From a virus: a stretch of 22,727 nucleotides of DNA. The notes under the pieces are model-generated. The model did no database searches and was not told the DNA's origin. It saw only the letters and a list, made by a program, of their open reading frames with translations. Position 1 is the stretch's first letter. Each line of letters starts with the position of its first letter. The stretch is taken from positions 1-22,727 of the IMG/VR virus record IMGVR_UViG_3300044843_000244, one strand, 5' to 3'. A program made the position numbers and the translations under genes. Positions 138 to 8,170 of the stretch are shown here, piece after piece.

Positions 138-150
138 CTTTTAGCACTTA
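138..150 (-). promoter_or_regulatory. Conserved leader motif, copy A (TAAGTGCTAAAAG)
   Basis: On the minus strand TAAGTGCTAAAAG ends 24 nt before the ATG of the gene leaving the left edge. The same 13 bases recur at 7307-7319 (25 nt before a start), and the core GTGCTAAAAG recurs at 3330-3339 (25 nt before a start). TGCTAAAAG resembles an extended -10 element (TG-n-TAnnnT), but no convincing -35 box is seen. A promoter or an operator is the likeliest reading. It lies in the short divergent region between this gene and the HNH ORF, so it could affect both. Confidence 0.45.
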
Positions 151-916: not shown

Positions 917-2725
917 TTATACCTGTGCCTCTACTTCTTGTTTATCAGTTTTAGTCATGTTTATATGTCTAGTATTCCATTCGGCTGGCTTCTCTGTGTT
1001 CCTCCACCATATAACTATTCGTGTCTTATCGAATTCAAATCTACCATCTCTTTTTCTACCAAATGGATTGTTTCCTACCTGCTTAATTAAAATACCTTCA
1101 GTCGCTGCTCTAATGATTGCTGTTTTCTGATGTAATTCTAATGTATCCCAAATTTTTGGTAATCCGTAACCATCTATTTCCATACCGTCTAATGCTAATA
1201 ATAAATTAGGCTCTGACGGCTCTTTAACTTTGTATGAATTTAACGCATCCATTTTAGCTGCTAATTCGTCTTGCTTCTCTTTATATTTCTGTCTAGCTGT
1301 TGGGGATTGCTCGTCTAATAATAAATCGGTGAGGATATCATATTTTTTATTTAACTCTGCGAGCTCTGAACCAAAAGCCTCTGGTAATTGCTTAATTAAT
1401 AAACTTTTCTCGTCCTCGTATGACGCTCTACTTTGCTCTAATTTCTTTTTTGTAAATACTTTAAATAATTCCTCTACTATATATTTATCTAAACTATCCA
1501 TAGATATTACTACTCCTTTACAATTACATGTTTTTGTTTTTAAGCAGATATATCCTGTAAAATCATTAGCTTTATTATGGTATCTAGTCATCCCGTATCC
1601 GCATCTTTCGCAGGTTAATAAACCCTGTAATAAAAATGGGGTTCGTGGTTTTCTTAAATCTTTAATTTTAACTAATGCGTGCTGTAAATCTACCCAGCGA
1701 CCATAATCCATAACTGGCTCTACGCCTGCTACAGGATTACCGTTACTATCTTTCTGAACATACTTTAATCTTTCGAAACCTGAATATTTAGCTACATTTC
1801 CTGATAATGCATTACCTTTATCGTTACTTAAATATCCTATTAATATCGGACTTGATAAATAAGCTTTTACTCTTGTACTTTCAACCGTATTGCTTCCAGG
1901 CGGTGTGCAACTAAATCCGTATTTCTCTAATGCTCTACCTGCTGCTCTTAAAGATTCGCCCTTTAAAATAGCTGATGTAGCTTCCTCTACTGCTTCTTTC
2001 CAATTTGGTAGCGGGTCTAAAATTTTACCATGTATTGTCATTCCCTTTTCGTGAGTTCTTGGGAATTTAGGGGCGTGTAAAACTAATATTTTATTTCCTC
2101 TGGTATCTACTTCCTCTATGTATTTTCCTTCTCTAGGGAAATAACCAGTCTGTAATCCGCCCATCCAAAAACCGCACTCTTTTAACTCTAAAGTATTCTC
2201 TAAAATTCTTTTACCGATTGTTCGAGATTCGTTACTATTTGTTGCTGCTTTTAACATAACTTGTATAACGGTTGCGAAATTCTGATTATCAGAACAATCT
2301 CCCTCTATACCATCTATGTATGATTGTACATGAACTCCGTTAATTCTGCAATCTCTAAGCCAAACTAATAAATCCTCTACGATACGATTATAACGAGATA
2401 ACTCTCTTGCTAATGTCAATTCTATTGCTTTATTTTTAATTAGCTCGTTTAGCGTATCCATACCAGGTCTTTTTGGTGCAGGTCCGAAATCTGTCCATGC
2501 GGGTGTTTTATCCCAAACTCTGTACTTTATATGAACTACTTTATTTGTAGCTCTCTCGGCTTTTTCTACCCATCTTAACTCTGCTGCTATCTGGGCTTCC
2601 ATACTATCCTGCTCGCCTTTTGATTGACGAATATAACAAGCAGCTTCTATACAACCGTTAGCTTTACATTTATCGGTATGTACTATTTCTAACTCTATAA
2701 TGTTTCTTAATTTTGTAATATCCAT
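917..2725 (-). CDS. Large serine recombinase (phage integrase)
   Basis: A 602-aa site-specific recombinase of the large serine integrase family, which would integrate the phage genome at a host attB site through a covalent phosphoserine intermediate. The resolvase domain contains the Y-I-R-Q-S catalytic motif with nucleophile Ser35 and the R-E-L-S-R-Y-N-R segment near residues 107-114. A recombinase domain follows (about 180-350), then a zinc ribbon (C372-x2-C375, C394 and C400 or C402) and a charged coiled-coil-like region (about 410-500). The start at 2725 is preceded by AAAGGAG at good spacing. The N-terminus carries an extra stretch of about 25 residues with C20, C25 and C30 before the catalytic domain. 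It lies one base after the 92-aa gene and probably shares its transcript. It indicates a temperate lifestyle, although no repressor is visible. Confidence 0.93.
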   Translation of the reverse strand: MDITKLRNIIELEIVHTDKCKANGCIEAACYIRQSKGEQDSMEAQIAAELRWVEKAERATNKVVHIKYRVWDKTPAWTDFGPAPKRPGMDTLNELIKNKAIELTLARELSRYNRIVEDLLVWLRDCRINGVHVQSYIDGIEGDCSDNQNFATVIQVMLKAATNSNESRTIGKRILENTLELKECGFWMGGLQTGYFPREGKYIEEVDTRGNKILVLHAPKFPRTHEKGMTIHGKILDPLPNWKEAVEEATSAILKGESLRAAGRALEKYGFSCTPPGSNTVESTRVKAYLSSPILIGYLSNDKGNALSGNVAKYSGFERLKYVQKDSNGNPVAGVEPVMDYGRWVDLQHALVKIKDLRKPRTPFLLQGLLTCERCGYGMTRYHNKANDFTGYICLKTKTCNCKGVVISMDSLDKYIVEELFKVFTKKKLEQSRASYEDEKSLLIKQLPEAFGSELAELNKKYDILTDLLLDEQSPTARQKYKEKQDELAAKMDALNSYKVKEPSEPNLLLALDGMEIDGYGLPKIWDTLELHQKTAIIRAATEGILIKQVGNNPFGRKRDGRFEFDKTRIVIWWRNTEKPAEWNTRHINMTKTDKQEVEAQV

Positions 2726-3103: not shown

Positions 3104-3304
3104 TTATTTAACCTTTCTCGAATTCTTGGGCTTTATAATTCTTACTCTTTCTGTTTTAGGTACGCCTATTTCTTTTAGTATATTAACGATAGATGTCCAT
3201 GTTTTTAAATACGGGTCGTTTATATCTAATAGTTCGTTATCGTCGTCGTTTTCTAGCTGGGTGTTTTTTACTTCGCCCTTTGGGCTTTTCTTTTTATTTG
3301 TCAT
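3104..3304 (-). CDS. Small basic hypothetical protein (66 aa)
   Basis: A 66-aa protein with a lysine-rich N-terminus, an acidic middle (N-D-D-D-N-E-L-L-D) and a basic C-terminus (R-I-I-K-P-K-N-S-R-K-V-K), including a possible helix around W-T-S-I-V-N-I-L-K-E-I-G. No family is recognised. There is no close Shine-Dalgarno sequence; GAGG lies 13 nt before the ATG. Its leader combines both recurring elements of the window: GTGCTAAAAG 25 nt upstream and TAGAGGCACAG-TATAAG just before the ATG. A small DNA-binding role would suit its charge but is not shown. Confidence 0.55.
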   Translation of the reverse strand: MTNKKKSPKGEVKNTQLENDDDNELLDINDPYLKTWTSIVNILKEIGVPKTERVRIIKPKNSRKVK

Positions 3305-3329: not shown

Positions 3330-3339
3330 CTTTTAGCAC
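3330..3339 (-). promoter_or_regulatory. Conserved leader motif, copy C (GTGCTAAAAG)
   Basis: The core GTGCTAAAAG on the minus strand ends 25 nt before the ATG at 3304, the same spacing as copy B at 7307-7319 and one more than copy A. An imperfect inverted repeat with GCACA/TGTGC arms and an A/T centre overlaps it at 3336-3357. Confidence 0.45.
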
Positions 3340-3446
3340 ATAAAAATATTTTTGTGCGTAAATGAGCGTAAAATAGCCTTATACCTTACGCTGATGTCCC
3401 GCCTGCCAAAACGGGCTTGGGTATATGGGTATAGATGCCACCACAT
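3333..3446 (-). CDS. Possible 37-aa peptide coupled to upstream gene
   Basis: The ATG overlaps the stop of the 45-aa frame by one base (TAATG), the same coupling seen between the helicase and sigma genes. The frame runs 37 codons (starting M-W-W-H-L-Y-P-Y) and stops inside the GTGCTAAAAG motif. The sequence is basic and aromatic with no known homologue to my knowledge. The TAATG join is the only evidence, and the stretch could equally be leader sequence with chance coding. Confidence 0.22.
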   Translation of the reverse strand: MWWHLYPYTQARFGRRDISVRYKAILRSFTHKNIFMC

Positions 3447-3583
3447 TAATGGGTAGGTGGTTCGCTTTCCTCTATACTTTTTATGATATCGTCTAACTGC
3501 ATTTCTGGTATATCGTCAAATACATCGAATACAGTATCGGCTTTTATTTTGTCTAAAATAATACTAAATAATTTTCTTATCAT
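3446..3583 (-). CDS. Small 45-aa protein downstream of sigma factor
   Basis: A 45-aa frame whose ATG overlaps the sigma-factor stop (ATGA), implying translational coupling. The N-terminus is basic and hydrophobic (M-I-R-K-L-F-S-I-I-L-D-K-I-K) and the rest strongly acidic (D-V-F-D-D-I-P-E-M, D-D-I-I-K-S-I-E-E-S-E). Size, charge and coupling to a sigma gene would suit a small sigma partner or anti-sigma peptide, but there is no motif to prove it. Confidence 0.5.
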   Translation of the reverse strand: MIRKLFSIILDKIKADTVFDVFDDIPEMQLDDIIKSIEESEPPTH

Positions 3584-4404
3584 AATTCCTCAAATGAAAA
3601 CGGGTTTTTAATTGCTGGGTGTCTTAATTTGGCTAATGCCGTAACTTCTATTCGTCTAATTCCTTCTCCAGTCATATTAAACTTTTCGCCCATTTCTGCT
3701 AGCGTTAGCCTTTCGTTATTTAACCCAAAACGGTAACTAATAACTAATCTCTCTATTTCGGTTAATTCCTCTATTGCTTTATGTAAGCTATCGTTTATTA
3801 ATTTCTTTTCTACAATTTCATGAACATCGTCCGAATTATCCAAAATTGTATCTTTTATAGTAAATTCAATATTATCATTATTATAAACTGGCTGGTCTAA
3901 TACTAACTCCCCTAATGGTAATTCTGTTATATCTACTCTATCTCCTATAATATCTTTTATCTCGGCTTGTGTTAATGAACGCATTAAAACTTCCTCTTTA
4001 GCTTTTATTTCGTTTCTAATAATAGCCGCTTCGCGTGCCTTCCGCTCTGGTATTCTAATCGTCCTTGTATGGTCTATTTCTTTTATAATAGCTGTTGTAA
4101 TCCACCTAACCGACCAGTGATATAAAACACCTTTGCTAGGTTGCCATCTTTTTACTGCTGCTACTAAACCCATAATACCCGCAGATACTAAATCCTCCCA
4201 CTCTATTTTACCTTTAAAATTCTTGGCTATATGTAATACTAATCTTATTTGCCTGTTTATTAATTCCTCGTGTATTAGCTCAATTTTTTTAAAATTGTTG
4301 CTATCTAAAGCATTCTGTAATTGCTCCGCTAACTCCTTTTCTCTCTCGGGCGTTAGCGGTTCAAATTCTGGCTGATTTAATTTCTGTAAATAATTTCTAA
4401 TCAT
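3580..4404 (-). CDS. Phage-encoded sigma-70 family RNA polymerase sigma factor
   Basis: A 274-aa sigma factor that would direct host RNA polymerase to chosen promoters. Region 2 (about residues 46-112) has N-R-Q-I-R-L-V-L-H-I-A-K, then E-D-L-V-S-A-G-I-M-G-L and the aromatic DNA-melting stretch Y-H-W-S-V-R-W-I-T-T-A-I. Region 3 follows at about 115-165. Region 4 (about 206-264) has a helix-turn-helix, L-T-L-A-E-M-G-E-K-F-N-M-T-G-E-G-I-R-R-I-E, then L260-R-H-P263. Region 1.1 is absent. The layout (regions 2, 3 and 4) is that of primary-like or group 2/3 factors, not short ECF sigmas. It starts by a TAATG overlap with the helicase stop and is followed by an ATGA-coupled 45-aa gene. Retention of L-R-H-P, part of the WhiB-contact surface of actinobacterial primary sigma as I recall, is notable because this phage also encodes a WhiB. 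Confidence 0.92.
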   Translation of the reverse strand: MIRNYLQKLNQPEFEPLTPEREKELAEQLQNALDSNNFKKIELIHEELINRQIRLVLHIAKNFKGKIEWEDLVSAGIMGLVAAVKRWQPSKGVLYHWSVRWITTAIIKEIDHTRTIRIPERKAREAAIIRNEIKAKEEVLMRSLTQAEIKDIIGDRVDITELPLGELVLDQPVYNNDNIEFTIKDTILDNSDDVHEIVEKKLINDSLHKAIEELTEIERLVISYRFGLNNERLTLAEMGEKFNMTGEGIRRIEVTALAKLRHPAIKNPFSFEEL

Positions 4405-6020
4405 TAAAATGGGTTCTCCATATGGTCTGAGGCGTGAGTAGGTCCAAACTCTGCGTTATATTGTTTTAAATTATATAACATCTCGTTTCTGCCTTCTTTT
4501 TCTAATCTAACCCAACCATTTCTAATTAAAAATTCTACGGCTTTTACGATTGTTTCTGCTCTCCAACCTGAACCGCCGTTTTTCTTTCTATCCTCGTTTA
4601 ATGTTTCTTTGATTTCGGACTTACTCATACTGCGACCGATTTCGTATAATAACTTACTAATTTTTTCTGCTAAAATTAAATCCCATCTTTTTTCGCTTGC
4701 TTCTTGGTCTGCTTGCTCTGGGCTTAATATTTCTAATTTACAGGTTTCTATTACTCCATCCATACTTGGCGTTGATACTAAAACTCCTGCTAATCTTTTT
4801 CCTGATGTATTTTTAATTTTTACTCGACCAGGTCTATCTTTATCTACATGTATTTCTACTCGTCCAGATTGCCAGGCTGACCCTGCCTGAACTACATTAG
4901 CTCGTAATGCTACTCCGCTAACTGCTGCTAATTTAGCTCCTGAACCTCTAGGTCCTCTATTTTGAAATGTACTCATACCTGCTCCGCCTGAACTTTTTGT
5001 AACATGGTCGACTACTAATACACCTGCTCCTGCATTTACTACAGGCCATACTGAACCGCTTAAAAATAAATTTACATCTCTAGCTTTATCCTCCTCTAAA
5101 GGTGGCGTATGTGATGACATAGCGGCGGCGAAACCATCTATAACTACGAATTGAACTTTACGCGTTTTTACTATTCGCATAATTGTAGCTCTGGTTTTAC
5201 CATCTAATCCTGTTGCATCTGCTCTATAATAAAATAATCTTTTATTTCTATCGCGTAATCCCATTTCGTCTAAAGGACCTTCTAGCCAGTTTCTAATTGT
5301 ATCTCTATCAATACCTAAACCTGACGCTATACTAAATATTCTTTCTGTACAGGTTACACCATCGCTTTCCTCGCAATCAATATAAACCGTCGGAAAACCT
5401 TCTATCATTTGCTGTACGCAGGTTAATTTTGCTAGCCACGATTTCATGCTCTCTGGCGGTGCTGCTATTAAATTTAATCTTGACGGATAAATTAAAAATT
5501 CTCCATCTGTTCGTTTTAATAAATTAGGCTCTAATCTCCTATGTGTTCCTGTAATAATAGCTCCTACGATACCACTTAAATCTGTCCAACCATCGTCGTC
5601 TGCTACTTGTGCTTCGTTTAATTCTGCTATTTCTAAAGCTGGGTCTCCGCCCTCGTCTATAACATCTGCTACCTTTCTTGCTGCTCTTGCTTGGTCGCGT
5701 CTCTTAGCTAAATCTCTAATTAATTTTGCGTTTTCTTTAGCTTCCTCTACTGTTCCCGCATTAGATAATAACCACGAAATAGCTCTATCTCCGCCTATAA
5801 ATTCTAACTCTTGGGCTAATCTTAAATCCTCTACTACCGCTGCGGGTGTAACATCCCACTTACTTGCTGTTCGGGCTATTGCGGAAAATATCGAACCTAA
5901 TTTAGCGTCGCTAAAATCTCCAGGTCCAATTTTATCTATAATTAATTCTATTGTTTCTGGGTGCTTCAAACATGCCCCCACTAATCTGTGTTCAGCTGGT
6001 AAATTGTGTAACTTACTCAT
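4404..6020 (-). CDS. Replicative helicase-like ATPase (DnaB/RepA-like)
   Basis: A 538-aa protein with three parts. The N-terminus resembles the DnaB N-terminal domain (E-H-R-L-V-G-A-C-L-K-H-P-E, about residues 10-110). The central RecA-fold ATPase (about 150-400) has a degenerate Walker A, A-P-P-E-S-M-K-S at 187-194, still ending in K-S, a Walker B-like F-V-V-I-D-G at 291-296, and D-H-V-T-K-S at 338-343. The C-terminus (about 450-515) looks like a winged helix (S-K-S-E-I-K-E-T-L, I-V-K-A-V-E-F-L-I-R-N-G-W-V). RepA-type hexameric ATPases and DnaB-like helicases share this design, so a role in unwinding at the replication fork is likely. It overlaps the RusA-like gene upstream by 8 nt and the sigma gene downstream by TAATG, placing it in the early operon. 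A primase-helicase or DNA-repair ATPase cannot be excluded. Confidence 0.8.
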   Translation of the reverse strand: MSKLHNLPAEHRLVGACLKHPETIELIIDKIGPGDFSDAKLGSIFSAIARTASKWDVTPAAVVEDLRLAQELEFIGGDRAISWLLSNAGTVEEAKENAKLIRDLAKRRDQARAARKVADVIDEGGDPALEIAELNEAQVADDDGWTDLSGIVGAIITGTHRRLEPNLLKRTDGEFLIYPSRLNLIAAPPESMKSWLAKLTCVQQMIEGFPTVYIDCEESDGVTCTERIFSIASGLGIDRDTIRNWLEGPLDEMGLRDRNKRLFYYRADATGLDGKTRATIMRIVKTRKVQFVVIDGFAAAMSSHTPPLEEDKARDVNLFLSGSVWPVVNAGAGVLVVDHVTKSSGGAGMSTFQNRGPRGSGAKLAAVSGVALRANVVQAGSAWQSGRVEIHVDKDRPGRVKIKNTSGKRLAGVLVSTPSMDGVIETCKLEILSPEQADQEASEKRWDLILAEKISKLLYEIGRSMSKSEIKETLNEDRKKNGGSGWRAETIVKAVEFLIRNGWVRLEKEGRNEMLYNLKQYNAEFGPTHASDHMENPF

Positions 6021-6426
6021 CTATTTTTTCTCCTTTATATATCATAATTAAAACTTCATTTCTATCGTCTATTGATAATCTAGGTTCCAATACTTCTATA
6101 TATTCAGCCGTATCGTCTGGGGCTAACCCTTCCTTAATTAATGCGTCTATAATTGTTTTTACATTTGTACCAATATAATTATGGGGGTCTCGCCTACCTT
6201 TATTTTTAAATGGTAATGTTACGAATATTTTTAATTTATATCCATAAAATTTCTTTCTTTCGGAAACTGAAATAGCTCTATATGCTATTGCTGTCCAAAA
6301 TGCCCAAGGTTTTAATCTTTTACTTCTGGCTGCCCAGTGCATACGATTACTCTCGTTAATACTTAATGGTCTATTTGGTGCTATAAAATTTACTTGTAAC
6401 CATCGAAAATCCTCGTCTTTATTCAT
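6013..6426 (-). CDS. RusA-like Holliday junction resolvase
   Basis: A 137-aa endonuclease predicted to resolve branched DNA formed during recombination and replication. Motifs are R78-R-D-P-H-N83, K90, D94 in I-I-D-A-L and D104-D105 in L-A-P-D-D-T, the order expected for RusA (D-x-D-N, K, D, D-D). The second acidic residue of the first motif is a histidine (D-P-H-N), a variant I associate with actinophage members. Length is close to the usual 120-140 aa. It overlaps both neighbours by 8 nt and sits with a putative annealing protein and a helicase, forming a recombination/replication cassette. Confidence 0.75.
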   Translation of the reverse strand: MNKDEDFRWLQVNFIAPNRPLSINESNRMHWAARSKRLKPWAFWTAIAYRAISVSERKKFYGYKLKIFVTLPFKNKGRRDPHNYIGTNVKTIIDALIKEGLAPDDTAEYIEVLEPRLSIDDRNEVLIMIYKGEKIDE

Positions 6427-6628
6427 CCTGCTCCTCTATCCAATTTTCGTAACCCCAGATTTCTATCGGGTGAAAACCGCATCGAATAGCGTACGCATCC
6501 GCTTGCTCGTATGTTAATCCTTCTAATTTAGCTCTTTTCAAAACTGTATGTCGAGCTCTAACGACCTCTCTAAATTCCCGCCAAGGTCTGTTATATTTTT
6601 CTACTAATGGCTCTATGGGAAATCTCAT
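6419..6628 (-). CDS. Small helix-turn-helix-like protein (69 aa)
   Basis: A 69-aa protein that couples to the upstream gene by ATGA and overlaps the RusA-like gene by 8 nt. The C-terminal half, with G-L-T-Y-E-Q-A-D-A-Y-A-I-R-C-G-F-H-P-I-E-I-W, has the spacing of small actinophage DNA-binding proteins that end in a x-x-H-P-x-x-x-W motif and carry a helix-turn-helix. The N-terminal half is strongly basic, and no clear recognition helix is obvious there. A DNA-binding accessory to recombination or a small regulator is likely, but the function is not established. Confidence 0.5.
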   Translation of the reverse strand: MRFPIEPLVEKYNRPWREFREVVRARHTVLKRAKLEGLTYEQADAYAIRCGFHPIEIWGYENWIEEQDE

Positions 6629-7281
6629 TTATACAGCCTTTGTTGGTCTTGTGCTTTTGTTAGCTTCTCAATTAAATCAGATGCTTGTTTTTGTGTTAAA
6701 TCTTTTACTGAAATTACTCCATACGATTTTAATAATTTCTGCGAAAATTCGCCGTCGTCCTCTAATCCTGCAATTTCTCTACGCTGTATTTGTATTTTCT
6801 GTACTTGTTTTTCGCTAGCTCTTTTAGGCTGTTCCTCGTCTCTGCTCTGCCAGCCTAAATCATATTCCCTCACCTCCTCTACTTTATTATTTGATTTTCC
6901 CGCTTGTCTTTCTTTTGCTGCTATAATTTCCTCAGCTGACGCTATTCCCTTCTTTGTATCTGCTGCTAATACTGCTACTATTGCTCTACCCCAGGCTGAT
7001 GTTTCGCAAACCATTGCCTCTGAGTCTCTTGTAAATGGTGTCCGTCCAGGAAATAATTCCCATGCTATACCTATACCAGGTTTTGTATCCTCTGGGCTTC
7101 TATACGCACATGCGACATACTGTAAATATGTCTTATCTGCTATTTGTATAATCTTTATAGGTTCGTATAAATCAGCAGGCTGTAAGCTGCCTTCTGGGTG
7201 CTTAGCTCTAAATTCGGCTATTCTTGTTGCAACATCGATATAATCTTTTGCCCATTCTCTTGGTGTATTTTGTGTAGTCAT
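6625..7281 (-). CDS. Putative single-strand annealing protein (ERF/Rad52-like)
   Basis: A 218-aa protein. Residues about 8-130 contain V-A-T-R-I-A-E-F-R-A-K-H-P-E-G-S-L, a beta-rich segment, and S-E-A-M-V-C-E-T-S-A-W-G-R-A-I-V-A, which resembles the E-T-S-A-x-G-R-A signature of phage ERF-type annealing proteins and related actinophage proteins. The second half is charged and helical, with a Q-K-I-Q-I-Q-R-R-E-I region. Such proteins anneal complementary single strands during recombination. Position next to RusA and a helicase supports this. The start at 7281 is preceded by the conserved leader TAAGTGCTAAAAG at 25 nt, suggesting its own promoter. The family call rests on one motif plus context and could be wrong. 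Confidence 0.5.
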   Translation of the reverse strand: MTTQNTPREWAKDYIDVATRIAEFRAKHPEGSLQPADLYEPIKIIQIADKTYLQYVACAYRSPEDTKPGIGIAWELFPGRTPFTRDSEAMVCETSAWGRAIVAVLAADTKKGIASAEEIIAAKERQAGKSNNKVEEVREYDLGWQSRDEEQPKRASEKQVQKIQIQRREIAGLEDDGEFSQKLLKSYGVISVKDLTQKQASDLIEKLTKAQDQQRLYK

Positions 7282-7306
7282 GTTTTATATCGTTATCAAC
7301 TTTCCG

Positions 7307-7319
7307 CTTTTAGCACTTA
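7307..7319 (-). promoter_or_regulatory. Conserved leader motif, copy B (TAAGTGCTAAAAG)
   Basis: Identical over 13 bases to copy A at 138-150, and 25 nt before the ATG at 7281. The region just before the start (GATAACGATATAAAACATG) also matches copy A (GATAACAATATAAACATG), so most of the roughly 40-nt leader is conserved between two unrelated genes. It lies in the 71-nt gap after the 197-aa gene, where a new transcript could begin. Confidence 0.5.
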
Positions 7320-7352
7320 AACTTTTCGCCCAATTTAAAAAAGCGGGGGTAC

Positions 7353-7946
7353 TTATTTATAAAACATATTTAAATCTTTTAAAACTTCTTTTGTAATCTT
7401 ATAATATCTATATATAATACGCGGATTTATTGAATTAATCGATTTACTTATATGATATATCTTTCTTATCCCTCTAAATGTCTGCTGGATTAACATAACT
7501 CTATCTATTAAAATATCTTTGTGATATTGTTCCAATCCTAATAATTCCTCTAAAAATAATCTTTCGTCGCTATTTACTTTGTAAAAATCTAATACATCTT
7601 TTGGCTTTTTACCGTCTTTTATATCATAAATTATATTTCGTAAATATGCTGGTGTCGTTTCGCCTATCCAGTTATTTTGGCAGTTTATTGCCATTGATAA
7701 AAACGGATAATCCTCTAAATGTCTTTGTCCACAGGCTACAGCGAGCATTTTAGGCGGTAATATATCGAAATCGGGTAATATTGCCCTAACTACTCTTAAA
7801 GCGTGCCTATTCGCCTGTAATGCGATATCTGGGGGCATTGTAGCGGTATCCTCTAACCTCTCTATAATATTAAATAATGCCTCGTCTCCTATCGGTAAAT
7901 CTGGGGCAAAATGTATTAATATCTCTTTTATAGGTATCTCGTTCAT
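7353..7946 (-). CDS. Hypothetical protein (197 aa)
   Basis: A 197-aa protein that starts by ATGA overlap with the WhiB gene. The N-terminal half is acidic (F-A-P-D-L-P-I-G-D-E-A-L, P-P-D-I-A-L-Q-A-N-R-H). The C-terminal half is helical and becomes basic and aromatic (R-G-I-R-K-I-Y-H-I-S-K-S, R-I-I-Y-R-Y-Y-K-I-T-K-E). No membrane segment, metal site or catalytic motif is evident, and I do not recognise the family. Coupling to WhiB suggests co-expression. It ends just before the conserved leader motif at 7307-7319. Confidence 0.6.
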   Translation of the reverse strand: MNEIPIKEILIHFAPDLPIGDEALFNIIERLEDTATMPPDIALQANRHALRVVRAILPDFDILPPKMLAVACGQRHLEDYPFLSMAINCQNNWIGETTPAYLRNIIYDIKDGKKPKDVLDFYKVNSDERLFLEELLGLEQYHKDILIDRVMLIQQTFRGIRKIYHISKSINSINPRIIYRYYKITKEVLKDLNMFYK

Positions 7947-8170
7947 TTTTTAACCTTTAATTTAGCTCTATCTTTTGCTAATAAACCGCCCCAAATACCT
8001 ACTCTAAGCGGGTCGCCTGCCTCAAAATTTAACGCGTAATCTAAACATTCCTTTTTTACGGGGCAACTAAAACATAAACTTTTTTGCTTTTCTCTATCCT
8101 CTGTATTTCTACGATTGAAAAATAGCTCTAAACCTACCCCTTTACAGGCTGCCCTGCTTTTCCAACTCAT
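7943..8170 (-). CDS. WhiB-family iron-sulfur transcription regulator
   Basis: A 75-aa WhiB-like protein. Four cysteines bind a 4Fe-4S cluster in the family and are all present: C9, C33, C36 and C42 (C-x23-C-x2-C-x5-C). They are followed by the turn G58-I-W-G-G62 and a basic tail (K-D-R-A-K-L-K-V-K-K). WhiB proteins bind region 4 of the primary sigma factor and regulate transcription, and phage WhiB proteins (for example from mycobacteriophage TM4) can interfere with host WhiB function. This gene is the strongest host marker in the window because the family is essentially actinobacterial. It lies between the lysis genes and the replication genes, coupled by ATGA to the unknown 197-aa gene. The same phage also encodes a sigma factor. 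Confidence 0.95.
   Translation of the reverse strand: MSWKSRAACKGVGLELFFNRRNTEDREKQKSLCFSCPVKKECLDYALNFEAGDPLRVGIWGGLLAKDRAKLKVKK

Follow-up and report, generated by a model that had tools for sequence, protein, structure and literature searches.

A WhiB-like protein and a primary-like sigma factor encoded together in a family of putative actinophages

We analyzed a 22,727-base window, the IMG/VR virus record IMGVR_UViG_3300044843_000244 (all coordinates are window positions), in which a WhiB-like protein and a sigma-70 factor are encoded in one co-oriented block with a DnaB-like helicase and a RusA-like resolvase. Both regulators were found, in the same order and on the same strand, in all 12 family records that reach both gene positions. 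The residues used for docking between host WhiB proteins and sigma-A are kept on both phage proteins, and the DNA-reading residues of the phage sigma are changed. The interpretation that we favor, with about as much doubt as confidence, is that in a temperate actinophage family the two genes make up a conserved, two-part module for transcription take-over, in which WhiB would act on the host sigma-A and the phage promoters would be served by the phage sigma.

Identity and co-occurrence of the two regulators

The features of the two genes are as follows.

3580-4404, minus strand: sigma-70 family sigma factor of 274 amino acids, group 1/2-like (Pfam, PHROG 351, PDB alignments and AlphaFold model)
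4075-4263, minus strand: sigma region 2, amino acids 48-110 (Pfam)
3619-3777, minus strand: sigma region 4, amino acids 210-262 (Pfam)
3616-3624, minus strand: R261-H262-P263, the equivalent of Mycobacterium tuberculosis SigA R515-H516-P517 (alignment; residue roles from PMC10245118)
7943-8170, minus strand: WhiB-like protein of 75 amino acids, predicted [4Fe-4S] (PF02467)
8162-8164, minus strand: W3, the equivalent of WhiB1 W3 (alignment)
7985-7999, minus strand: G58-I59-W60-G61-G62 turn, matching G[V/I]WGG, with W60 as the equivalent of WhiB1 W60 and WhiB3 W76

The sigma-70 factor named in the original prediction was recovered by Pfam, with region 4 (Sigma70_r4, PF04545; 50.2 bits against a cut-off of 24.1) and region 2 (Sigma70_r2, PF04542; 37.7 bits against 24) both above their cut-offs, and the open reading frame (ORF) matched PHROG 351 (RNA polymerase sigma factor) at 6e-34. 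Residues 4 or 9 to 264 aligned with RpoD, RpoS and SigA chains of the PDB. The RpoD alignment, which starts at residue 4, gave a region 1.2-like N terminus that had no Pfam region 1.2 match and was absent from the original prediction. Region 3 had no Pfam match; the RpoD and SigA alignments run through it, and the AlphaFold model has helices there. The model, with a predicted local distance difference test (pLDDT) score of 72 and a poor linker, matched actinobacterial SigA chains with a Foldseek probability of 1.00, and cyanobacterial SigA and RpoS ranked first in the sequence search. The primary sigma model TIGR02393 (RpoD equivalog) scored 107 bits, below its cut-off of 354. In a tree of primary, group-2 and phage sigmas, the branch of the phage family was long and had full support, and its placement was uncertain.

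The WhiB gene was likewise complete, as had been predicted. The protein scored 64 bits with PF02467 (cut-off, 23.6), and its four cysteines, C9, C33, C36 and C42, follow the pattern CxnCx2Cx5C. The best PDB matches were Streptomyces venezuelae WhiB (8dy7_H) and M. tuberculosis WhiB1 (6ono_A).

Family members were collected by searches with the helicase (85-86%) and the capsid (mostly 74-90%), which gave close relatives, and by alignment-based searches, which added further ones. The 12 records carrying WhiB and sigma are the window, G013, G014, G018, G021, G028, G029, G031, G032, the records of L101 and L104, and L098; several are near-duplicates, which leaves about 10 distinct lineages, and the contig of L098 ends just inside the sigma start, which was identified by eye. 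Position, strand and order are conserved family-wide in the replication block at G+C (guanine plus cytosine) contents of 37-59%. The pairing is not a matter of chance, because both genes occur in every family record that reaches both positions. Outside the family, no Sigma70_r2 match was found in 42 other WhiB-bearing viral records (8-133 kb). Among the first 12 WhiB relatives, one record (L050) had a weak sigma of the extracytoplasmic function (ECF) type and another (L051) had a weak region 4 match only; the remaining sigma-like region 4 matches in WhiB phage records outside the family were examined and rejected as not being sigma factors. A more distant capsid relative of 49 kb (L028) had neither WhiB nor sigma. 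Fisher tests on these counts are descriptive only and ignore relatedness.

Docking residues and DNA-reading residues

The N terminus of the phage WhiB aligned with M. tuberculosis WhiB1 without a shift (W3, C9, F17 and F18), and all of the sigma-A docking aromatics, W3, F17, F18 and W60, are present in the WhiB1 register. Family WhiBs at 48-53% identity keep W3, C9, F17, F/Y18, C33, C36, C42, W60, G61 and G62. On the sigma side, L260-R261-H262-P263 was confirmed in region 4 at exactly the residues given in the original prediction, and R-H-P was found in 9/9 full family sigma sequences. Alanine at the equivalents of F17, F18 or W60 in WhiB3, or at SigA H516, abolishes the complex, and SigA R515 contributes less in that assay (PMC10245118); in a two-hybrid assay, R515H blocks the binding of WhiB7 and WhiB3 (PMC3905903). 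The docking positions tested in the WhiB3/SigA work are kept on both the phage WhiB and the phage sigma.

The original prediction implied that R-H-P is special to WhiB binding, which fails on wider sampling: the motif was present in all primary sigmas sampled, namely 28/28 primary-like sigmas of Actinomycetes and, from records filed as phage, those of Salmonella, Klebsiella, Acinetobacter and Enterococcus. R-H-P was therefore rejected as a WhiB signature, since Salmonella, Acinetobacter and Enterococcus are free of WhiB. Among actinobacterial group-2-like and SigB sigmas, R-H-P was found in 8 of 21 (SigB, 0/2; other group-2-like, 8/19), where the group labels are approximate because sequences were sorted by score rank and length without annotation. 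None of the five cyanobacterial-phage sigmas (S-CBS3, S-CREM2, MA01, S-B68 and Microcystis phage MaAM05) has the motif. Streptomyces WhiD binds region 4 of HrdB and not that of HrdD (PMC7363131). In S. stelliscabiei, the primary sigma has R-H-P and two other group-2-like sigmas, one of which may be HrdD, read LRDHA and LKKLA. R-H-P is neither WhiB-specific nor obligatory in an alternative sigma, and its retention in the phage sigma is suggestive only, because alternative sigmas often lose it; this retention counts slightly against the view that WhiB shuts off the host sigma alone. As a side observation, AGRM01000002 and CAKLQH020000002, both filed as phage, carry a bacterial rpoD and resemble bacterial chromosome, and the Klebsiella phage record MK416018 also has rpoD.

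Regions 2.4 and 4.2 of sigma-70 factors read the -10 and -35 elements, respectively. In the recognition helix of the window sigma, MTGEGIRRIE replaces VTRERIRQIE; all seven aligned family members read TGE[AG][MI]RR[ILV]E, against TRERIRQIE in the primary sigmas aligned. The region 2.3/2.4 equivalents of Escherichia coli W433 and Q437 are changed to R and T, respectively, in the same 7/7 members, unlike in all primary sigmas aligned. These substitutions predict an altered -10 and -35 preference of the phage sigma. Region 4.2 is the most conserved part of the protein within the family, with 17 of 31 columns invariant. A scan for sigma-70 consensus promoters was uninformative (48 in the window against 67.4 in shuffles).

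Neighboring genes, repeated element and host

The other features of the window that bear on the pair are listed below.

4404-6020, minus strand: DnaB-like replicative helicase (Pfam DnaB, PHROG 19), directly upstream of sigma
6013-6426, minus strand: RusA-like resolvase (PHROG 34)
6625-7281, minus strand: conserved early-type protein (PHROG 23738, which has no assigned function)
7353-7946, minus strand: all-helical, fast-evolving protein that overlaps the WhiB stop by 4 nucleotides and always adjoins WhiB
3446-3583, minus strand: ORF of 45 amino acids that overlaps the sigma stop through ATGA and has conserved counterparts in L014 and L015
7307-7316, minus strand: GTGCTAAAAG copy 1, resembling a promoter or operator, upstream of 6625-7281
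3330-3339, minus strand: GTGCTAAAAG copy 2, upstream of 3104-3304
138-147, minus strand: GTGCTAAAAG copy 3, upstream of an ORF running off the left end of the window

The 10-mer GTGCTAAAAG occurs in three minus-strand copies, each shortly upstream of an ATG, where 0.04 are expected. Two of the three share GTGCTAAAAG-N9-GATAAC, and L014 and L015 have a related element at the orthologous place, as the counterpart of copy 1. The 10-mer may be a phage promoter or operator, assignable to no particular sigma.

The slot after sigma holds a conserved ORF of 45-50 amino acids in the window, L014 and L015; the window copy (3446-3583) had no family match above the cut-off and is a possible candidate for a sigma-linked regulator. 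The protein encoded at 7353-7946 gave a confident all-helical model (pLDDT 92) with no PDB match at E <= 0.001, and its fold was dropped as a clue to a WhiB partner for that reason. Between the window and L014/L015, WhiB differs by 49-52%, sigma by 42-45% and 7353-7946 by 42-44%, against 14-33% for the genes between them. The faster divergence fits polymerase-facing proteins that adapt to a new host, or replacement.

Additional WhiB-like genes were observed in three relatives. The second WhiB-like gene of L060 (10819-11211) begins on the final base of the sigma stop codon, and that of L098 (13846-14154) lies between helicase and sigma. At another place in its genome, L046 has, in addition to a standard WhiB, a 249-amino-acid ORF (1643-2389, minus strand) whose WhiB domain carries GHGIYAGL in place of GVWGG and is followed by a long C-terminal extension. 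In all three, the four cysteines and FF are kept, and F, R or Y (F or R in L060 and L098) stands where G[VI]WGG has its W.

Nearly all genes of the window lie on the minus strand: portal, prohead protease, capsid, tail genes, a peptidoglycan hydrolase-like protein, WhiB, the helical protein, the PHROG 23738 protein, RusA, the DnaB-like helicase, sigma, small proteins and a serine integrase. The viral contig in which the two regulators lie has a capsid of the HK97 type in addition to the portal, prohead protease and serine integrase. A tape measure-like protein of 800 amino acids was named among the tail genes by its length and position only, and the peptidoglycan hydrolase-like protein was assigned via a sequence motif without a family match. 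On the plus strand, ORF 90-680 combines an HNH-like Cys/His N-terminal half with a holin-like hydrophobic C-terminal half; it had no Pfam match, and relatives of it were seen in L015, L046, L048 and L060. No end repeats were detected in the 22,727 bases, and Rfam and tRNA scans of the window found nothing.

No close relative of the window was found among annotated phages, and sigma and helicase used as probes there gave distant matches only. The named genomes with capsid relatives are all Actinobacteria (Streptomyces, Microbacterium and Lentzea), which supports an actinobacterial host. WhiB is restricted to Actinobacteria and their phages (PMC10202952), and the G+C content of the window is 33-43%. 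The host may be a freshwater or marine low-G+C actinobacterium.

Proposed function of the pair and comparison with known systems

In the favored take-over module, WhiB most likely forms a [4Fe-4S] protein and, like WhiB1, WhiB3 and WhiB7, would use W3, F17, F18 and W60 to dock on the host primary sigma at region 4, and this docking would redirect or dampen transcription from host promoters. The phage sigma most likely binds the host core RNA polymerase and would read phage promoters whose -10 and -35 elements are altered. As the least certain step, WhiB may also ride on the phage sigma, because the latter keeps the WhiB docking residues; a direct contact between the two phage proteins would be plausible. 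We infer every binding and regulatory step of this module.

Several points weigh against it. As a general feature of primary sigmas, R-H-P says little in favor of a partnership; it also lies in the most conserved region, where three adjacent invariant columns are expected with a probability of about 0.13-0.16. In the window, 3.5 kb separate the WhiB gene from the sigma gene. The link between their distance matrices (partial r 0.64, single-test P 0.0125) is lost once the 36 gene pairs are corrected for, and it is outscored by an unrelated gene pair; co-evolution judged in this way was suggestive and not significant after correction. Moreover, the identity of the host is deduced, and the sigma-A sequences compared come from sources other than the true host. 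The interpretation in the original prediction is partly supported: what stands of the partnership is the conserved pair with its docking aromatics and R-H-P kept, and the generic nature of R-H-P weakens that last item. The data fit both alternatives offered there, a self-contained switch and a WhiB that disables the host sigma.

The strongest alternative, which we regard as possible but somewhat unlikely, is that the two proteins are independent regulators without cross-talk: WhiB would act on the host sigma-A only (or together with the WhiA of the host or, as TM4 WhiB does, on the promoter of a host whiB gene), the phage sigma would act alone, and R-H-P would be kept for folding or polymerase contacts. 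The host-side steps are common to this alternative and the take-over module, and the difference lies in the exclusion of any WhiB contact with the phage sigma. WhiB without a sigma is the common actinophage state (0/42 with Sigma70_r2), the top-scoring match of the phage WhiB is S. venezuelae WhiB, a partner of WhiA (8dy7/8dy9), primary sigmas of WhiB-free bacteria carry R-H-P, and TM4 WhiB reportedly inhibits the expression of host whiB2 and prevents secondary infection (cited in PMC8612146). However, R-H-P is lost in 13/21 actinobacterial group-2-like/SigB sigmas and in 5/5 cyanobacterial-phage sigmas, so structure alone does not force its retention, and WhiB paralogues gather beside the sigma gene in L060 and L098.

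We consider it doubtful that the phage sigma and the phage WhiB form a promoter-selecting complex of their own, a phage version of sigma-A/WhiB-like (Wbl) complexes, for which the second, sigma-linked WhiB with a changed W60 in some relatives would be tuned to the sigma. A stricter form, in which the phage WhiB would serve the phage sigma exclusively, as co-activator or brake, with no action on the host sigma, seems improbable. The constant co-occurrence of the genes, the docking residues kept on both partners and the extra WhiB beside sigma in two lineages speak for such a self-contained switch. Against it, the docking face of the phage WhiB is the same as that of host WhiB-like proteins and host sigma-A has R-H-P, so host sigma-A should be bound too; furthermore, the lack of a region 2 match in 42 phage records with WhiB shows that a phage WhiB needs no phage sigma. 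Least probable is host-derived cargo, acquired independently and kept as neighbors without shared function: the genes are not adjacent, and the divergence of 42-52% in sigma, WhiB and 7353-7946 against 14-33% between them could be replacement, but the same position, strand and order in a replication block at 37-59% G+C and the key residues kept in both proteins speak against it.

The nearest described systems are the Planktophila phages LanE43AprE7 and LanE43AprF5 (PMC10202952, ISME J 2023), which are likewise actinophages with a WhiB-like protein and a sigma-70 factor and for which host control was suggested as the use of the two. The original prediction knew of no described phage WhiB-sigma partnership; the pairing had in fact been described in both of these phages, and a physical partnership is unreported in the papers searched. 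We found no paper on a tested phage WhiB-sigma contact in a literature search that was thin on subscription papers. By its published description, the Planktophila phage sigma is assigned to TIGR02943, a 188-position model, which sets it apart from the window sigma with its primary-like regions 1.2-4 and R-H-P; TIGR02943 had no match in the window even at E 10. The window also has a serine integrase, and an integrase is unmentioned in the text of the Planktophila phage paper (PMC10202952).

Actinobacteriophage WhiBs such as TM4 WhiB share PF02467, the four cysteines and G[VI]WGG with the phage WhiB but are described without a phage sigma, which is unmentioned in the survey text (PMC8612146). 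In comparison with the WhiB1, WhiB3 and WhiB7 complexes with SigA region 4 of M. tuberculosis, the phage WhiB has W3, F17, F18 and W60 in the WhiB1 register and the phage sigma keeps the equivalents of R515-H516-P517; those partners are host proteins, whereas both candidates here are phage-encoded. Unlike the M. tuberculosis Wbl set, the phage WhiB has no AT-hook and no WhiB3-type N-terminal extension. Phage group 2-like sigmas, such as that of Synechococcus phage S-CBS3, are also primary-like sigmas on phage genomes, but the Synechococcus and Microcystis phage sigmas lack the R-H-P of the window sigma. The WhiB search matched no Synechococcus or Microcystis phage, and its named matches were Mycobacterium, Gordonia and Microbacterium phages.

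Among the transcriptional regulators of actinophages, WhiB-like proteins are the most abundant, occurring in 24% of genomes (PMC10117723), and their role in infection was called largely enigmatic in a survey (PMC8612146). The pairing of WhiB with a sigma-70 factor is known in actinophages, and what sets the present family apart is a primary-like sigma in which the WhiB docking site is retained. With this site kept and the DNA-reading residues changed, WhiB and the primary-like sigma provide a clean pair for asking which sigma a phage WhiB targets, that of the host, that of the phage or both.

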